The translations under genes were made by a program, and so were the position numbers. Below, piece after piece: positions 51,584 through 62,738 of a stretch of DNA of 64,000 nucleotides; the stretch's first letter is position 1, and every line of letters begins with the position of its first letter. The notes under the pieces were generated by a model. It ran no database searches. It saw only the letters and a list, made by a program, of their open reading frames with translations, and was not told the origin of the DNA. The stretch comes from Candidatus Poribacteria bacterium (GTDB taxonomy: Bacteria > Poribacteria > WGA-4E > WGA-3G): positions 486,827 to 550,826 of the forward strand of contig JAJEIE010000027.1 of the NCBI GenBank assembly GCA_022827625.1, read 5' to 3'.

Positions 51584-52438
51584 ATGGCAACTTTTGGAAC
51601 AGGTGATTATCAATATGAAGTCGTAGAAGGTTGGGGTATGATTCCCCAACTCGGGCTCGTTTCGGGTGTGGCATGCGACTCAAACGATCGCGTCTACGTC
51701 TACAATCGGAGTCCACAACCCGCAATGCTCGTTTTCGAGGCTGACGGCACATTTGTCACTGAATGGGGCAAGGATATCTTCCAGAAACCCCACGGCATCT
51801 GGATAAGTCCCGATGACGAAATTTATACCACTGACACTGTCGATCACACCGTACGGAAATTTTCGCTTGACGGTGAACTGTTGGAGACATTTGGGACTGT
51901 CGATCAACCTGGACCCCCAGGCGGTCCCTTTAATGAACCCACCCGCGCGGTACTCTCGGCATCCGGCGAGATGTACGTCTCTGACGGCTACGGACAATCG
52001 CGGGTACACCGAATGACTGCGGACGGCGAAGTTATCGTTTCGTGGGGCGCACCGGGTACTGGACCTGGCGAATTTAATCTGCCGCACGATGTCACCGTCG
52101 ATCACAACGATCGCGTCTATATTCTCGACCGCGGGAACCTCCGCTGCCAGATTTTCAACAACGAAGGTGAATACTTGACGGAGTGGACAGACCTCCGCTC
52201 GCCGAACGATCTCTTTATTGATAGTGATAATATCATCCACATCGCAGAGGGTGGGCAACGCATCAGCATCATGACCCTTGATGGCGAAGTTATCGGGCGA
52301 TGGGGAGAGAAGGGAAGTAATCCTGGTCAATTCAGCGATTCCCCACACGGCATCTGGATCGATTCAAATGGGAACATCTACGTCAGTGAGGTTGTCGCCG
52401 ACAGACGCTTCCAAAAATTTGCGAGGGTTCAGTTTTGA
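51584..52438 (+). CDS. NHL/SMP-30-type six-bladed beta-propeller protein
   Basis: The 284-residue protein has NHL-type blades: DSNDRVYVYNRSPQPAMLVF, SPDDEIYTTDTVDHTVRKFS, EMYVSDGYGQSRVHRM, VDHNDRVYILDRGNLRCQIF and SNGNIYVSEVVADRRFQKF. No signal peptide is seen, so it is cytoplasmic or exported by another route. It resembles peptidyl-glycine lyase/lactonase-like propellers without a recognisable active site. AGGAGG precedes the ATG. The stop overlaps the NicO start by four bases (TTGA). Confidence 0.78.
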   Translation: MATFGTGDYQYEVVEGWGMIPQLGLVSGVACDSNDRVYVYNRSPQPAMLVFEADGTFVTEWGKDIFQKPHGIWISPDDEIYTTDTVDHTVRKFSLDGELLETFGTVDQPGPPGGPFNEPTRAVLSASGEMYVSDGYGQSRVHRMTADGEVIVSWGAPGTGPGEFNLPHDVTVDHNDRVYILDRGNLRCQIFNNEGEYLTEWTDLRSPNDLFIDSDNIIHIAEGGQRISIMTLDGEVIGRWGEKGSNPGQFSDSPHGIWIDSNGNIYVSEVVADRRFQKFARVQF

Positions 52439-54601: not shown

Positions 54602-55708
54602 CTACTTTCCTTCGCCAATTTTTTTGAGGCTTCCCCACGTCTTGACAAGTTTATCCGTTGGATCGACGCTCTGAGGAAATTCTCCTGTATCGTAGACTTC
54701 GACGGTTAGCAATGTCTCCTCCGCCCCCTCGACGCGTCCACCAAAGACATAAATTTTTCCCTTTACGACTTCGGCAGCATGTCCGGATTTGCCAACCGGC
54801 ATGTCTGGTTCCTGGGTCCAACGCCCGGTTTCAGGATGGTAGATGTCAATCGTTGAAAAATACCTAAAATCCCGTCCGTCACCCCGAAAAAATCCGCCGA
54901 TCACATAGATTTTTCCGTTGAGTGCACTTGCGGTGTGACTCGATTTCGCCTCAGGCATCTCTCCTATTTCGCGCCATTGGTTCGTTTTTGGGTTGAACGC
55001 TTCAACACTGGAAAGAAAGGGGCCTGGATGGAATGGAATCTGGGGCCACCCTGTTCCACCCATGACGTAAATTTTTCCGCCCACAACACTGATTGCTGGT
55101 CCAGAACGGGCATGGTTCATTTTTTTCGCCTTCGCCCAAGTATCGGTTGCTGGATCATAGACCTCCACGGTATCTAAACGCCACGGTTTATTCTGCCATC
55201 GATTATTGAGTGCTGTACCACCGATCGCATAGATTTTCCCATTAACGACACAGGTCCTGGTACTTCTGGGTGTTGGCATGTCCGCCTTTTGGATCCATGT
55301 GTCTGTAGCCGGATCATACATTTCTACAGTTGGTAGTTCTTTGATCTGCCACGAATGTCCGATATGTCCCTTAATTTTCTTTTTCTCTGTGCCTCCAATA
55401 GCGTAGATTTTCCCATTGACAACTGAAGCTGATACATCGGATCGGGCTGTCGGCATGTCTGCCTTTCGGTGCCATGTATCAGTTTTCGGGTCGTACATTT
55501 CTACCGTTGCGATAGACACGTCCCCAAATCTGTCGATTTCGCCGCCAATAGCATATATCTTTCCGTTCACAATACACGTAGCAAAATCAGAGCGAGCTGT
55601 GGGCAGGTCTGCTTTTCGCTCCCAATTTTCTTCAGCAGGGAGATTCGCAACGTTGGTAACTAACAATGCCCACAGTATCAATATTCCTAACGTCCAACGC
55701 ATTTTCAT
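54602..55708 (-). CDS. Exported Kelch-repeat beta-propeller protein, copy 1
   Basis: The 368-residue protein has a signal peptide (KMRWTLGILILWALLVTNVA) and Kelch repeats of about 50-60 residues with the VNGKIYAIGG motif (at least six). Representative blades read PTARSDFATCIVNGKIYAIG and VVGGKIYVMGGTGW. It should form one six- or seven-bladed propeller. No catalytic residues were recognised. GGAGGT precedes the ATG. It is the last of four consecutive propeller genes on this strand. Confidence 0.85.
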   Translation of the reverse strand: MKMRWTLGILILWALLVTNVANLPAEENWERKADLPTARSDFATCIVNGKIYAIGGEIDRFGDVSIATVEMYDPKTDTWHRKADMPTARSDVSASVVNGKIYAIGGTEKKKIKGHIGHSWQIKELPTVEMYDPATDTWIQKADMPTPRSTRTCVVNGKIYAIGGTALNNRWQNKPWRLDTVEVYDPATDTWAKAKKMNHARSGPAISVVGGKIYVMGGTGWPQIPFHPGPFLSSVEAFNPKTNQWREIGEMPEAKSSHTASALNGKIYVIGGFFRGDGRDFRYFSTIDIYHPETGRWTQEPDMPVGKSGHAAEVVKGKIYVFGGRVEGAEETLLTVEVYDTGEFPQSVDPTDKLVKTWGSLKKIGEGK

Positions 55709-55916: not shown

Positions 55917-57008
55917 TTAGTATTGGCGGTGTGCTTTGAGTTCACCCCAGCGTGTAGGGACCTTGCCTGTTGCTTCAACGGCACGAAATCCGGTATCGTA
56001 GACAAGAACGTCTGTAGAAAATTGCACACCTGCACCAAGGCTTCCTAAGATATAAATCTTTCCGTTGACCGTCGCTGCATCAAAAGCACCAAGAGGGTTT
56101 GGCAATGCTGAAATCTCCCGCCACGTCTCCGTCCGTGGATGATACACATTCACAGTTGCTACTTCCTGCAAGCCTCCTTCAAGTGTGTAACCCCCGATCA
56201 GATAGATGGCATCCCCAACAACAGCACTTGAGAACCAATTTTTGAGTTCTAACAGATCCTGCTTTTTTCGCCATTGACGGTTTATTGGGTCATACTCTTC
56301 AATGCTCTCCAGAAACGGACCTGCTCCCCACTGTTGAGGGACTGGCCATCCTTCCCCACCAATGACATAAATAGAAGTGCTGACAACCGCTACACCCCCA
56401 GGATCGCGCCGGGTCGGCATTTTGGGACCCTTCGCCCACGTATCCGTGGCAGGATTATAAATGTCAACGCGGTCCATCCGTTGCTCCTGTCCATCACCCA
56501 GACCTGTTGTTCCCCCAATGAGATAGACTTTTCCAGCAACCACCCCCAGACCGAAGTAGAAGCGAGAAACAGGCATCTCCTTTTTCTGTGTCCATATATT
56601 TGTGAGTGGATCGTATGCCTCTACGTGATCCGCCATTTTCCAATTCTGAAAGAATTTGTCTTTTGAATTATACCCCCCAAAGACATAGATCGTGCCATTG
56701 ACGACAGCCGCTTTGGCATTCGTGCGTGCCGTTGGCATATCTGTGCCTCTCTGCCACGTGTTGGTCTGTGGGTCGTAGACCTCAACAGTTGAAAGTCCAA
56801 AGGGCCCTGCATGGTTTTGAAAGAGGCTGCCACCGATGAGATAAATTTTATCCTCTACGACTGCGGTAGAGAATTCCCATCTCTTGGTGGGAATTTGACT
56901 TATCCGTTGCCACTCTTCACCCGCAAAAACTTCTATTTGCATAAGCAAGAAAACGAGAACAACGACACCAATAACGATAGATTTTTTAGAATTAAAAGTG
57001 CTTAGCAT
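55917..57008 (-). CDS. Exported Kelch-repeat beta-propeller protein, copy 2
   Basis: The 363-residue protein has a signal segment (SIVIGVVVLVFLLMQIEVFA) and about six Kelch blades, for example TAVVEDKIYLIGGSLF, VVNGTIYVFGGYNSKD and VVAGKVYLIGGTTGLG. It is parallel in design to the protein at 54602 but only moderately alike, so it is an older paralogue. The WD40 gene lies 54 bases upstream. The function is unknown. Confidence 0.85.
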   Translation of the reverse strand: MLSTFNSKKSIVIGVVVLVFLLMQIEVFAGEEWQRISQIPTKRWEFSTAVVEDKIYLIGGSLFQNHAGPFGLSTVEVYDPQTNTWQRGTDMPTARTNAKAAVVNGTIYVFGGYNSKDKFFQNWKMADHVEAYDPLTNIWTQKKEMPVSRFYFGLGVVAGKVYLIGGTTGLGDGQEQRMDRVDIYNPATDTWAKGPKMPTRRDPGGVAVVSTSIYVIGGEGWPVPQQWGAGPFLESIEEYDPINRQWRKKQDLLELKNWFSSAVVGDAIYLIGGYTLEGGLQEVATVNVYHPRTETWREISALPNPLGAFDAATVNGKIYILGSLGAGVQFSTDVLVYDTGFRAVEATGKVPTRWGELKAHRQY

Positions 57009-57062: not shown

Positions 57063-59603
57063 CTACTTCAAAATCACCATCCGTCGCGTGGCGGAGAAAT
57101 CTCCGGCGGTAAGCGTGTAAAGATACAGACCACTGCTGACCGGTTCGCCGACTGTATTCCGACCATCCCAATACGCCGCACGGTTGCGCGATTCATAGAT
57201 GCCCGCGCCTTGCGTGCCTAACGCGAGCCTCCGAACTAACTTCCCATCTGCGGCATAGATAGAGATTTTGACATTCGCAGGTTTTGCCAACTGATACGGT
57301 ATCCATGTTTCTGGGTTAAGCGGATTCGGGTAGTTCGGCAATAAAGCGGTCTGTTTCGGTGTTAATGCTGTAAGAAGTTGTTCTAAAATGAGGATACCGC
57401 GTTGAAAAGCCGGGTCTGTTAGCGACAATTGTCGGGCTTGCTGCAGCCATTTTTCTACATCTGCAGCGGCGAAGGTTTGAAAGGCTTGCGCGTTCAGGGC
57501 AGGCGCGGAATCTCTTGGACCTAAGGCACTCGCAACAAGGACAAGGTCCTGTATATTAACAGTCCCATCACCGTTGACATCCGCAGCAGTGTCTCCCGAT
57601 CTCCCAAGATCTGATCCGGATTGCCCAAGATGTGATGCGACCGATACAAGGTCTTGGATGTTAACAATATCATCCCCAGTGACATCTTCTTTGCGTCTTA
57701 TAGGTTCAGTGATGTCTGCTGTAGGGGAGGGATTGAGTTCCCATACGAGGACTGTGCCGTCCTTACTCCCGCTTACAATGGTATTGCCATCTGGGCTAAA
57801 CGCTACGCCGTCCACGTCATCCGCATGCCCTGTGAGTGTGAGGAGATGGGTCCCCGTGTTCGTATCCCAGAGACGCACAGTGCGATCCCAACTCCCGGTT
57901 GCAAGGGTGCCATCGGGACCAAACGATATGCTGACGATCGAATCCGTATGTCCAGTGAGGGTGTGGAGATGGGTCCCCGTGTTTGCATCCCAGAGACGGG
58001 CAGTATCGTCATAACTCCCGCTGGCGACGAGGGTGCCATCCGGACTAAACAGGACGCTGGCGGCTCCAGCTGTATGCCCGGTGAGTGTGTGGCGCTCGTT
58101 ACCTGTGTTTGCATCCCAGAGACGAACAGTGTCGTCATAGCCTCCGCTTACGATGGTATTGCCATCTGGGCTAAACGCTGCACTTCTGACCCAATGCGTA
58201 TGCCCGGTGAGTGTGCGGAGAGGACGCCCCGTGTTGACATCCCAGAGACGGACAGTGCGGTCACCACTCGCGGTTGCGAGGATTGTCCCATCCGGACTAA
58301 ACGCTACATCTCTGATCCAATCCCTATGTTCGGTGAGTGTATGGAGCAGGCTTCCCGTGTTCGCATCCCAAAGACGGGCAGTGCGATCATAACTCCCGCT
58401 GGCGAGGATCGTTCCATCCGGACTAAACGATAGGCTGTTGACTGTGGTCGTATGCTCGGTGAGTGTGTGGAGCAGGCTTCCCGTGTTCGCATCCCAAAGA
58501 CGGACAGCCCCGTCCTCGCTTCCACTGGCGACGGTCGTTCCATTCGGACTGAACGCTACGCCGATGACTCCAGCCGTATATCCGGTGAGCGTGCGGAGAT
58601 GGTCCCCTGTGTTTGCATCCCAGAGACGGACAGTGCTATCCCAACTCCCGCTGGCGACGGTCGCCCCATCCGGACTTAATGATACAGTGATGACCCGAGC
58701 CGTATGCTCTGTGAGTGTGTGGAGATTGCTCCCTGTGTTCACATTCCAGAGACGGACAGTGTTATCATCGTTCCCGCTTGCGATAAGGGTACCATCCGGA
58801 CTAAATGATACGCTGGTAACCGCACGTCTATCCGCGGTGAGCGTGCGAAAATTTCTACCTGTGTTGACCTCCCAAAGCCGGATAGTGCCGTCCCAACCCC
58901 CGCTTGCGATGGTGGTGCCATCCGGACTAAACGCTATACTGTTGATCAAACCGGTATGTCCAATAAACGTATGGAGATCGGCACCTGTGTTGGCATCCCA
59001 AAGCCGGACAGTGCCGTCATAACTCCCACTTGCGATGGTGGTGCCGTCCGGACTAAACGCGACGCTGGCGACCGGAGCCCTATGCCCTGTGAGCGTATGG
59101 AGATCGGCACCTGTGTTCGCATCCCAGAGACGGGCAGTGCCGTCATAACTCCCACTTGCGATAATCGTGCTATCTGGACTAAATGCTACGCTGAGAACGC
59201 CAGACCTAACAAAGTTTCTGGACGGCTTTGTATGCCCTGTGAGTGTGTGGAGATGACTCCCTGTGTTTGCATCCCAGAGACGAGCGGTGTTGTCCACACC
59301 CCCGCTTGCGATGGTATTGCCATCCGGACTAAACGCTACGCTGTTGACCCCATCCGTATGTCCTTTGATCAGTTCAAGTTCTTCGCCTGTCTGTGCGTCG
59401 TAGATCCAAATACCTATCATACTGACGACTGCCAGACGTGTGCCATCTGCGGAATACTTTACTTCATTTATCTTACCTTTGCCGAGACGTGCTTTCGCAT
59501 CTTCGGGTAATCCCGACGTTGTGTAGTCTTGTGCCGAGGTGTGTGCCACAACAGTAAATATCGCCAAAAGTCCAACTAAAATTGAAAATTGTGTGGTTTT
59601 CAT
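57063..59603 (-). CDS. Exported WD40 double-propeller protein with dockerin repeats and a sorting domain
   Basis: The 846-residue protein has a signal peptide (FSILVGLLAIFTVVAHTSA) and 14 WD40 units of about 42 residues (the first, KYSADGTRLAVVSMIGIWIY, is degenerate), which fits two seven-bladed propellers. Typical blades read VAFSPDGTTIASGSYDGT and VRLWDANTG. Then come dockerin-like repeats (DVTGDDIVNIQDLVSVASHL, DVNGDGTVNIQDLVLVASAL) and a final NYPNPLNPETWIPYQLAK domain like that at the end of the protein at 2984. No catalytic domain is seen; protein or glycan binding at the cell surface is inferred. Confidence 0.85.
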   Translation of the reverse strand: MKTTQFSILVGLLAIFTVVAHTSAQDYTTSGLPEDAKARLGKGKINEVKYSADGTRLAVVSMIGIWIYDAQTGEELELIKGHTDGVNSVAFSPDGNTIASGGVDNTARLWDANTGSHLHTLTGHTKPSRNFVRSGVLSVAFSPDSTIIASGSYDGTARLWDANTGADLHTLTGHRAPVASVAFSPDGTTIASGSYDGTVRLWDANTGADLHTFIGHTGLINSIAFSPDGTTIASGGWDGTIRLWEVNTGRNFRTLTADRRAVTSVSFSPDGTLIASGNDDNTVRLWNVNTGSNLHTLTEHTARVITVSLSPDGATVASGSWDSTVRLWDANTGDHLRTLTGYTAGVIGVAFSPNGTTVASGSEDGAVRLWDANTGSLLHTLTEHTTTVNSLSFSPDGTILASGSYDRTARLWDANTGSLLHTLTEHRDWIRDVAFSPDGTILATASGDRTVRLWDVNTGRPLRTLTGHTHWVRSAAFSPDGNTIVSGGYDDTVRLWDANTGNERHTLTGHTAGAASVLFSPDGTLVASGSYDDTARLWDANTGTHLHTLTGHTDSIVSISFGPDGTLATGSWDRTVRLWDTNTGTHLLTLTGHADDVDGVAFSPDGNTIVSGSKDGTVLVWELNPSPTADITEPIRRKEDVTGDDIVNIQDLVSVASHLGQSGSDLGRSGDTAADVNGDGTVNIQDLVLVASALGPRDSAPALNAQAFQTFAAADVEKWLQQARQLSLTDPAFQRGILILEQLLTALTPKQTALLPNYPNPLNPETWIPYQLAKPANVKISIYAADGKLVRRLALGTQGAGIYESRNRAAYWDGRNTVGEPVSSGLYLYTLTAGDFSATRRMVILK

Positions 59604-59671: not shown

Positions 59672-62572
59672 CTATTCTGCTGCAAGCGGAAGGTGGAATA
59701 GCCCACGTCCATTAACAGCGCTATAGAGCTTATCTTTAATGATGGCGAGAGAAATCACTTCATTTACAGCTTCTGAAGAGATCTTTTGCCATCGGTTACG
59801 AATATCCAAACAATAAATGCCGGTGTCGCCGGTCCCATAAACTTTTATGCCGTCCGTAGCAAATCTATCTATGATGGGACGCGCACCCGCGCTATCGGTT
59901 AGCACGCGCCAATGTGCGCCGGTTTGTGAAACTAAGACCCCTTCGTCTGTTGAAACGTAGAGGGTTGATCCTATAAAGGTTATCTCTTTGAAGTGCGTGA
60001 AACGCAGCGGTAAGCTGGATGTAATGTCTCGCCAACTGTGTCCTTCATCAAGCGATTGAAACAACCTGCCATCTCGTTGACCTACATAGATAGTTTCACC
60101 CGAAACCGCCGTTTTGAATCCACCTCTGTATTTCCCACCATTCCAGTGATCATGCCCTTCACTCGTGTCTGCCAATCCCGTATATGTCCACTCTGGATCA
60201 CCGACTTTCCATTTGAAGAGTCCTCTTTGGTATTCCACGTAAAATGCATCGCTGCCGGCTGCAGCTGTCTCACCTTGCAGCCGAGTTATGGCGTAAGGTG
60301 CATCAATTTGCATCCGAGCGATCGCATAAGCAGAATTTGTTTTCCGATCAAAAAGCGGGACACCTTGAACAGGGATTAGCATGTCGCCATCTGTAGATAA
60401 ACGGAAAATTTGGAACGCCTCTGCTTCAGATGAAACGAAATAAAGTGTGTTTCCAACAACCGCAAACTTTGACTCATAAGCGAGTTTCGTCCTGGGGTTA
60501 AGCACGCTTCCCTCTCCATCAACCGGAACTTTTTTCCAAGACACGCCCGCGTCAATTGATTGATAAACCTCATAACCAGTATGTGCGTATAACCTGTTGT
60601 TGAACGCAACTAAATCCACTATGTGCATCCCTATTATCCCATTCATAAATGGGTGCCATGACTCACCACCGTCAGTCGTGCGATGAATGCCCCATACACT
60701 GGCTTTGTAATACGTTTTTTCATTCACCATCACTGCTGGAAGGCTACTACGCCGCACCCAATTCTGGTCGCTTCTAAGTTGTGTCCAAGTTTGTCCACCA
60801 TCTGTTGAACGAGATTGATCGTACCCCAGTGCTAAGAGCGTTTTACCGGCAGCTAAAACCGTTATACCCGCATGGGCATGCGTAAGTCTGTATTGACTTC
60901 CATGTCTTATTTCTATCCACGAAGCCCCTAAGTCAGCTGAATGGAAAATCTTGACTGGATGCGAACGCTTACCCTTCGTTGCCTCATATTGTTCTGATCG
61001 AGTTAATCTCACCAACAGCTCGGAACCTGTTCCAACATAAAGATTGTTTCCAGACACTGCCAAAGAACAGACGGCTCCTGATGTATCCAGCGGTAGTTTT
61101 TTCCAAGTGTCTGAATCAAGACGATAGAGACCAATGTCTGTCCCGGCGAACACTGTTTTTCCAACAGCAGCGAGTGTCGAAACTTTTTCAGCTGTCAACC
61201 CATAGTTAAAAGGCTGCCATTGTGTGCCCCCGTCTATAGATCGGAAAATCCCTTCATCTTTAAGCGCAAGATACATCGTTCTATCTGCTTGCGAGCTGCG
61301 AGCATGCGTCGCCTCTGTGATGATGAGTCCAACAGCATCTCCGTTGGGTCGGGGACCCAGTGTTTGCCACGTCTCGCCGTTATCATCTGAAGTAAATATC
61401 TCGTCTGTAGAAACAATATAAAGCACTCCGTCATGCGCCGCCATCGGTATTCGAGATTCACCAATAGGGATACTGGCATTGACGTGCGTCCATGCGGTTG
61501 CATCTGCTGATAATCTGTAAATTCCTGTTGATGCAGCAGCATAGACAGTCCCTTCAGGTGTAGCGAAGAGATCGCGGATATAACCCGCTGGCGGTCCTTT
61601 TCCCTGCGTCCACTGTGAGGTAGAGAGTGTGGCATGATCCTCCGATGTAACAGATGCTGTCACATCAGAAACTTGCGGACTGCTCCCACTGCTCTTGCCG
61701 GGTGTCGCAGCGCGACCGAATTGGTTTCGCACAGCCGGTTTCACCGCAACATTAAGGACGATAGGCGCGTCAACGATTTCAACCGTCCGTTCAGATTCCG
61801 CCTCGAAACTGTACGGTTTCTGAAACCGCGCCAGGATTTGGTTACTTGCCCCGAGCATCAATAGAACCAAAACTGCCGTCGTTCCAAGAGCCATCCACGG
61901 CAACAACGGTTTTCCAACTGGAGGTGCTGCTGGGTTGATGTCAGCGACCCGCCGCAGGATACGCTCGGTTACGTGGGCGGGGAACGGGATACCTCCGAGT
62001 GTCTCGCGAACCAAGAACTCTTCCCCTTGATCCTGTAAACGCTTTATGCCGCGGCGGAGCCGACTCTTAATCGTATTTACAGATACACCTAAAAATTTTC
62101 CAATTTCCTTCGCCGTCATTTCTCCGAGATAGTGAAGTGTAACCACCGTGCGTTCGCTCTCTGGTAGCCGTGCCAGCAGCTTTTTTACCTGTTCATAGCG
62201 ATGTTCCTTAACCTCCATCTCCCGCTGTTCCGATACATAACGTGTATAAGAGGATTTATCGATTTCTGCCATAGGTGTACCCTCCAGCGATTGCATCGCA
62301 GATTTGTTCTTTTGGAGCCATCTCAGACAGAGTCGATTGGCAATGACGTAAGCCCATCCCGCGAACTGGTTCGGATTTTTGAGTTTCGCGAGGTTCTTAT
62401 ATGCCTGGAAGAAAGTGTCTTGAGTAATCTCTTCAGCAGCGTGAAAATCACCAACCTTCCGCCACGCGAGGGCGTGAATACTCTTTTGGTGTTTTCGGAC
62501 TAAGGCACTGAATGCCGTATCGTCGCCTGATAAAATGCTATGAATCAACTGAACATCGTCTTCTTTTTCCAT
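59672..62572 (-). CDS. ECF sigma factor fused through a membrane segment to an Asp-box (BNR) propeller
   Basis: The 966-residue protein starts as an ECF sigma-70 factor: region 2 about residues 10-90 (AWRKVGDFHAAEEITQDTFF, KLKNPNQFAGWAYVIANR) and region 4 about 128-182 (LPESERTVVTLHYLGE, VNTIKSRLRRGIKRLQ). Residues about 225-246 are a membrane span (WMALGTTAVLVLLMLGA). The rest, about 700 residues, has at least seven Asp-boxes of the S-x-D-x-G-x-x-W type (SDDNGETW, SIDGGTQW, STDGGQTW, TTDGGESW, SIDAGVSW, SLDEGHSW, SADLGASW). The layout predicts a cytoplasmic sigma factor tied to an extracytoplasmic propeller. No separate anti-sigma gene is adjacent. The function is inferred. Confidence 0.88.
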   Translation of the reverse strand: MEKEDDVQLIHSILSGDDTAFSALVRKHQKSIHALAWRKVGDFHAAEEITQDTFFQAYKNLAKLKNPNQFAGWAYVIANRLCLRWLQKNKSAMQSLEGTPMAEIDKSSYTRYVSEQREMEVKEHRYEQVKKLLARLPESERTVVTLHYLGEMTAKEIGKFLGVSVNTIKSRLRRGIKRLQDQGEEFLVRETLGGIPFPAHVTERILRRVADINPAAPPVGKPLLPWMALGTTAVLVLLMLGASNQILARFQKPYSFEAESERTVEIVDAPIVLNVAVKPAVRNQFGRAATPGKSSGSSPQVSDVTASVTSEDHATLSTSQWTQGKGPPAGYIRDLFATPEGTVYAAASTGIYRLSADATAWTHVNASIPIGESRIPMAAHDGVLYIVSTDEIFTSDDNGETWQTLGPRPNGDAVGLIITEATHARSSQADRTMYLALKDEGIFRSIDGGTQWQPFNYGLTAEKVSTLAAVGKTVFAGTDIGLYRLDSDTWKKLPLDTSGAVCSLAVSGNNLYVGTGSELLVRLTRSEQYEATKGKRSHPVKIFHSADLGASWIEIRHGSQYRLTHAHAGITVLAAGKTLLALGYDQSRSTDGGQTWTQLRSDQNWVRRSSLPAVMVNEKTYYKASVWGIHRTTDGGESWHPFMNGIIGMHIVDLVAFNNRLYAHTGYEVYQSIDAGVSWKKVPVDGEGSVLNPRTKLAYESKFAVVGNTLYFVSSEAEAFQIFRLSTDGDMLIPVQGVPLFDRKTNSAYAIARMQIDAPYAITRLQGETAAAGSDAFYVEYQRGLFKWKVGDPEWTYTGLADTSEGHDHWNGGKYRGGFKTAVSGETIYVGQRDGRLFQSLDEGHSWRDITSSLPLRFTHFKEITFIGSTLYVSTDEGVLVSQTGAHWRVLTDSAGARPIIDRFATDGIKVYGTGDTGIYCLDIRNRWQKISSEAVNEVISLAIIKDKLYSAVNGRGLFHLPLAAE

Positions 62573-62738
62573 CGGAACACTCCATGACTGCGGTACGCGA
62601 TAGCAAACTGAGATACTTAAATTTAAAGCATTGCTTTGTTATCCTGTTGTTAAAGATACAATTTTAAGGCGGAAAAGGTGCATAATCTGCATTTTTACCT
62701 AAAAAACGGCGAGAATATCCTTTGCGGCAGATTACAAC

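Follow-up and report, generated by a model that had tools for sequence, protein, structure and literature searches.

How can a sigma factor, a membrane span and a β-propeller serve one function when all three are parts of the same polypeptide? The question is raised by a gene at positions 59672–62572(-) of a 64,000-nucleotide stretch of Candidatus Poribacteria DNA (the window), which comes from a genome of 5.02 Mb in 41 contigs. An initial annotation of the window had proposed a self-contained membrane sensor that controls its own tethered sigma factor. On balance, the product of the gene is probably a one-component membrane-tethered ECF sigma factor that is released by proteolysis, regulates its own expression and controls surface repeat proteins. 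The larger finding, which goes beyond that annotation, is a multi-copy cassette with exchangeable ectodomains.

Domain architecture

The gene is a single uninterrupted ORF of 966 amino acids. Sigma-70 region 2 covers residues 24–90 (62303–62503(-); Pfam PF04542, 3e-13) and region 4 covers residues 127–179 (62036–62194(-); PF08281, Sigma70_r4_2, 1.3e-15). Pfam matches in the sigma part are limited to region 2, region 4 and Sigma70_ECF with region 3 absent, which places it in group 4 (ECF), and its structural matches include SigW, AlgU and SigE. Region 4 is followed by an inner juxtamembrane segment (residues 183–221, 61910–62026(-)) that is conserved across the 18 paralogues and is predicted by AlphaFold to contain two short helices, 185–193 and 199–212. 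The membrane span, at about residues 222–244 (61841–61909(-)), is the sole strong hydrophobic segment of the protein: its best 19-mer, 223–241, has a mean Kyte–Doolittle value of 1.98, compared with 1.32 for the runner-up elsewhere.

Beyond the span lies a conserved outer juxtamembrane stretch (residues 246–286, 61715–61837(-)) with the consensus RFQKPYSFEAxSEPTIEIIDAPIVLDxxxKPAVRNQxGR. In alignments A2 and A6, Phe250, Gln251, Pro253 and Tyr254 are invariant or nearly so despite differing C-terminal domains, and the stretch is a candidate site-1 cleavage or partner site. The remainder of the protein is an Asp-box ectodomain (residues 320–966, 59675–61615(-)) with Sortilin-Vps10/BNR matches in Pfam. 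Its seven Asp-boxes (S/T-x-D-x-G-x-x-W) are located at 395, 445, 545, 589, 632, 672 and 840, while 2000 shuffled ectodomains contain a mean of 0.013 and a maximum of one. Pfam, hydropathy and shuffling thus bear out the elements originally seen, and the sigma factor and span are indeed part of one polypeptide.

The same order of sigma factor, span and ectodomain is found in 78 of 78 cassette genes from other Poribacteria MAGs, as the initial annotation would have it. The join of two genes during assembly that had been named as a caveat is ruled out by this recurrence of the layout in independent genomes: the span lies at about 217–247 in each of the 78 relatives, and the genomes that share the layout include single-contig chromosomes. 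We give hardly any credence to the notion that the sigma domain is vestigial or that the gene is an artefact of assembly or prediction. Its unusual layout, and nothing further, speaks for this; the repetition of that layout, single-contig chromosomes included, and the strong constraint on the sigma part speak against it. In eight homologue pairs dN/dS is 0.02–0.21 for region 2 and 0.02–0.13 for region 4, compared with 0.23–0.44 for the propeller.

Distribution of the cassette

Eighteen genes in the window's genome have residues 1–310 of the cassette in common, with 47–74% identity to the window protein. Their C-terminal parts differ: eight carry Asp-boxes, two are Kelch and three are LRR proteins (two of these with GHL15), and the others include a redoxin, a Big_5/DUF3108-like domain and unassigned sequences. 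When the proteins of other MAGs are included (95 in all), the types are Asp-box (52), Kelch (13), LRR (13), M16-like (five), Reg_prop (two) and others.

In a search of the phylum, 68 of 85 Poribacteria genomes contained the juxtamembrane module. It is present in all 59 genomes of the family searched, in nine of 14 from other families of the same order and in none of 12 from other orders or classes, so that among these 85 genomes the cassette is restricted to one order. Four genomes contain at least 51 copies each.

Several relatives deserve separate mention. An Asp-box paralogue with 50% identity lies just past the end of the window (G000:C30:551168-554137(-)) and has its own promoter motif at C30:554205. 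The protein encoded at L044:13325-16057(-) (G000:C37:131445) combines a sigma factor with an Asp-box propeller. Because the span and outer stretch are both absent, it is probably cytoplasmic and would be a natural deletion for comparison. At L056:5267-7666(-) (G000:C31:51087 region) a cassette-related sigma factor is joined to an M61 aminopeptidase-like domain, with no predicted span and a weak promoter motif upstream.

Fold of the ectodomain

In the AlphaFold model (mean pLDDT 74), residues 320–966 form about 14 four-stranded blades. GH74 xyloglucanases are the top Foldseek matches of the window ectodomain, and the first 17 rows of VIA-align are all GH74 (Z = 24.7–26.7, about 567 residues over 312–966, 16% identity). 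A profile built from 21 ectodomains matches 2cn2 at 6e-18. Structure matches and profile together identify the two tandem seven-bladed propellers that define GH74. Matches to WD40 and G-beta propeller structures were set aside, as they reflect the common fold.

The presumed catalytic aspartate of the first propeller, which we take to be D70 in the C. thermocellum enzyme, is where 2cn2 and 2cn3 differ (D versus A). In the window protein the aligned residue is Ser348, and an aspartate is found here in none of 41 homologues, which mostly have Pro, Gln, Ser or His. Since this position is never Asp, a role in binding rather than hydrolysis is likely, and the double propeller is probably non-catalytic. 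The same absence makes it very improbable that the protein is a membrane-bound GH74-type enzyme whose sigma part merely regulates its own synthesis, even though the fold is that of GH74 and a statement in PMC6081418 citing Kamke 2013 describes GH74 as abundant in Poribacteria.

Exchange and probable export of the ectodomain

On the cassette tree the type of ectodomain changes 17 times, and the Kelch members L098, L109 and L139 nest within Asp-box clades. One exchange can be followed in the DNA. The Kelch gene L098 and the Asp-box gene L107 are 88% identical from -229 to +923 and diverge afterwards. Positions 949–1149 of L098 then match 3025–3225 of L107, where a second gene begins: a Kelch gene right downstream of the Asp-box gene, with a signal-like N-terminus of its own. 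Evidently, as read from these alignments, a deletion fused the cassette with the mature portion of the neighbouring Kelch gene, whose signal peptide was replaced by the span. In another genus, an M16-like gene that stands alone has the same relation to the cassette-fused M16-like domain.

As the span now stands where a signal peptide had been, the ectodomain should be exported. This deletion-fusion is the best evidence for export, and it lends strong if indirect support to the extracellular propeller of the initial annotation. The positive-inside rule was also considered as a guide to topology and is nearly neutral (5.4 versus 4.4 Lys/Arg in the 45 residues on each side).

Promoter motif and candidate targets

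A bipartite ECF-type promoter motif, GATTATGCACC...AAAATTGTATCTTTAA, is located at 62648–62692(-) and ends about 76 nucleotides upstream of the ATG of the window gene. Its PWM score of 28.8 makes it the sole match above 15 in the window; shuffled windows contain 0.1 such matches per strand. The upstream motif common to cassette genes is TTTCAAATTATGCACCTTTT...AAAATyGYGTCTTTAA, which we take to read as AAC/CAC-N17-YGTC, presumably the usual ECF spacing. The motif was first seen by eye in upstream regions of the window's genome, and both the PWM and the search model described below were partly trained on these. With a simple regular expression it is found in 37 of 99 upstream regions, versus 2.9 (s.d. 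2.0) when shuffled. By PWM, most upstream regions exceed the 99th percentile of shuffled controls, while about a third have no motif directly upstream. A stricter regular expression missed the window site, the last element of which is GTATC rather than GTGTC; the PWM found it.

The sequence-only model R1 returns 44 sites with E < 0.01 in the window's genome; the window site, a member of the training set, has an E value of 7.8e-10. Fourteen sites precede cassette-type sigma genes and several precede operons that reach one. The top site lies before a non-sigma gene and is from outside the training set. Other sites precede PD40/TolB-like propellers bearing signal peptides, Kelch, WD40, Reg_prop, LRR-dockerin and FG-GAP proteins, and ABC-2 permeases. 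The initial annotation had asked for a promoter motif shared with propeller genes, and such a motif does precede both cassette genes and stand-alone propeller genes.

The model has 73 matches in G005, a single-contig genome, and these lie before cassette genes, WD40 and LRR genes and an ABC-2 gene. It has none in G082, a genome of the same phylum that has no cassette. In genus g3 the top match lies in front of a gene for an M16-like protein that stands alone and has a signal-like N-terminus; elsewhere an M16-like domain is fused to the cassette. When motif variants are mapped onto the sigma clades, six changes are required versus 21.5 after shuffling. This covariation is compatible with cognate recognition of the motif by these sigma factors. 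We do not count it as proof because shared descent alone could give it.

ABC-2 permease genes that stand behind the motif and are followed in line by a cassette-type sigma gene are found at L253:393-1790(+), L258:427-1938(+) and L246:2359-3870(-), the last being assigned by sequence resemblance alone.

The cassette could also be a device for surface variation, serving the export, anchoring and self-regulated expression of changing surface proteins with sensing secondary or absent. Its large copy number, the 17 ectodomain changes and the recent deletion-fusion would suit such a device, as would the secreted repeat proteins encoded behind the motif. Anchoring would not require an active sigma factor, but purifying selection on the sigma part is strong and cassette sigma genes carry the promoter motif. 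We regard this explanation as distinctly improbable.

The probable window operon and other sigma fusions

Downstream of the window gene and on the same strand lie genes for a secreted WD40 propeller protein with an N-terminal signal-like segment (57063–59603(-), 68-nucleotide gap) and a secreted Kelch protein (55917–57008(-), 54-nucleotide gap), both probably in the same operon. A second secreted protein with Kelch-type repeats and a signal-like N-terminus (54602–55708(-), 208-nucleotide gap) possibly belongs to it as well; in L089 and L107 a homologue of it comes after a cassette gene of the Asp-box type. The window thus keeps an order of the kind seen in L107, its sigma/Asp-box gene being followed on one strand by WD40, Kelch and Kelch genes. 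A scan of the window operon for sigma-70 promoters and terminators gave nothing above chance. An NHL-type propeller gene (51584–52438(+)) lies near the Kelch and WD40 genes, and this end of the window is propeller-rich.

Other ECF sigma fusions occur in these genomes. A protein of 403 amino acids joins an ECF sigma factor to an FtsZ/tubulin GTPase (G000:C15:47060-48268(-), identical to L055:7061-8269(-)) and has relatives with 73–78% identity in most of 20 genomes of the genus. At L267:811-5082(+) in G005, a 1423-residue protein combines sigma factor, FtsZ and DNA polymerase III alpha (PHP, polymerase and finger domains), and frames of 1350–1430 amino acids matching sigma factor and FtsZ are found in most genomes of the genus. 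Both kinds of fusion are very unusual. A third, of 571 amino acids, joins an ECF sigma factor to a full DNA polymerase III beta clamp (G000:C20:13088-14800(+), identical to L057:5089-6801(+)); full-length relatives occur alongside stand-alone clamps in many of the 20 genomes, and in G005 the promoter motif lies immediately upstream.

Proposed silencing and release of the sigma factor

None of the cassette genes in the window's genome, the window gene included, has a zf-HC2 anti-sigma gene beside it, whereas six canonical ECFs of the same genome do. This agrees with the self-contained sensor originally proposed. Pfam recognises no complete anti-sigma domain within the cassette protein. The two helices before the span take the place of the pre-span segment of canonical anti-sigmas and are possibly the remnant of such a domain. 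These helices are predicted with confidence in the cassette model, although the relative placement of the domains is not (pTM = 0.59). The model is closer to anti-sigma-bound ECFs (CnrH/CnrY and SigW/RsiW) than to holoenzyme forms, which weakly suggests a compact resting state. The FQxPY stretch has very low confidence and is probably disordered. The genome contains one full M50 site-2-protease gene.

By analogy with IutY and ECF52 (PMC8999054, PMC5826349), the likeliest mechanism is regulated intramembrane proteolysis in which a ligand controls site-1 cleavage, as it does in RsiV (PMC4183432). The N-terminal sigma factor would reside in the cytoplasm, anchored by the single span, with the double propeller outside the inner membrane as sensor. 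In the resting state the sigma factor would be held at the membrane, possibly compacted by the two pre-span helices. Binding of a putative ligand, for which the initial annotation suggested a glycan or protein, or another change in the ectodomain would make the outer juxtamembrane stretch accessible to a site-1 protease, after which the M50 (RseP-type) protease would cut within the span and free the sigma domain. The latter may then recognise TATGCAmC-N(about 20)-YGTC promoters, both the one that drives its own synthesis, alone or as part of an operon, and those of ABC-2 permease genes and of genes for secreted proteins of propeller, Kelch, LRR or similar type, regulation presumably running from the freed sigma factor to these genes.

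Alternatively, the protein might never be cleaved and the sigma factor might work at the membrane, the ectodomain acting through conformation or clustering as in CadC/ToxR. Conservation of the span and outer stretch would fit this, and the likeness of the cassette model to compact anti-sigma-bound ECFs weakly suggests conformational control. However, an invariant FQxPY in a probably disordered region would suit a site of cleavage or docking, and TM-fused ECFs that have been characterised or proposed (IutY and ECF48/52/53) are assigned to proteolysis (PMC8999054). Permanent tethering is unlikely in our view, and proteolytic release remains the preferred reading.

More tentatively, we propose that the sigma-span cassette with its shared outer motif is a modular platform: fused to neighbouring exported genes, it would have given rise to dozens of parallel one-component receptors in one cell, each of which would drive a common autoregulated surface-repeat regulon. 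If true, this would be a bacterial receptor repertoire with sigma factors as output, in which many surface domains apparently report directly to transcription. Poribacteria proteins annotated as GH74, Kelch or LRR may in some cases be receptors and not enzymes or plain surface proteins. The proposal offers a hypothesis for environmental sensing in uncultured sponge-associated Poribacteria, and the cassette could serve as a module from which to engineer new membrane sensors.

Comparison with known systems

Both membrane-fused sigma factors (ECF48, 52, 53 and 243) and propeller-extended ECFs (ECF57) are already known. In openly readable papers we came across no multi-copy family whose ectodomains are exchangeable, no GH74-fold sensor and no such regulon, nor any link between ECF sigma factors and Poribacteria; a prior report elsewhere is possible. 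Sigma factors are absent from the main text of the 2014 paper on Poribacteria repeat proteins.

In ECF52, ECF48 and ECF53 an ECF sigma factor likewise runs on into a membrane span, with a binding domain outside the cell (PMC5826349, PMC8999054). For the ECF52 protein SCO4117 of Streptomyces coelicolor, proteolytic activation has been proposed and positive autoregulation suggested (PMC5826349, PMC8999054). These proteins are actinobacterial and have a zinc-finger anti-sigma domain, and SCO4117 is the sole ECF52 member in S. coelicolor, whereas the Poribacteria cassette has dozens of copies, exchangeable ectodomains and no zinc finger: Pfam gives no zf-HC2 match in the window protein, and the zf-HC2 matches of the genome are located elsewhere. 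The window protein has a span too, and in the place of the C-terminal carbohydrate-binding domain of ECF52 it has a GH74-type propeller that may bind a ligand.

IutY (ECF243) of Pseudomonas putida is also a single polypeptide that unites a sigma factor with a membrane-anchored regulator. Prc and RseP have been demonstrated to cleave it and so to free the sigma factor, and proteolysis is supported for ECF52 (PMC8999054). IutY is part of siderophore cell-surface signalling, however, and neither a propeller nor swapped ectodomains have been reported for it. ECF57 of the Singulisphaera type has a long C-terminal extension containing WD40-like repeats and is proposed to act via protein interaction; a link between σ2 and σ4 through two cysteines has also been proposed (PMC8999054). 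The window protein is set apart by its Pfam content, having an ectodomain of Sortilin/BNR rather than WD40 type beyond a span; Cys82 is conserved in region 2 and region 4 has no cysteine.

The GH74 xyloglucanases (2CN2 and 6P2M) share the tandem seven-bladed Asp-box fold (Z of about 25–26.7). They differ in sequence (about 16% identity) and in the catalytic aspartate examined, which is gone here, and the propeller described here is fused to a sigma factor and span. The Bacteroides hybrid two-component sensors BT4663 and BT4673 couple a periplasmic tandem propeller to transcription in one polypeptide. Their ectodomains are among the Foldseek matches, and Reg_prop also occurs as a cassette ectodomain. 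Their output is a histidine kinase with an AraC-type domain and not a sigma factor. In the RsiV–SigV lysozyme receptor, binding to the ectodomain makes the outer site cleavable and starts intramembrane proteolysis (PMC4183432), but there the anti-sigma is a separate protein.

Known self-sensing sigma fusions are few and scattered, whereas in Poribacteria they form a large lineage-specific family with exchangeable sensors, in which a fusion event can be read in the DNA and a promoter motif names candidate targets. The Poribacteria cassette is a hugely expanded version of the fused sigma design.
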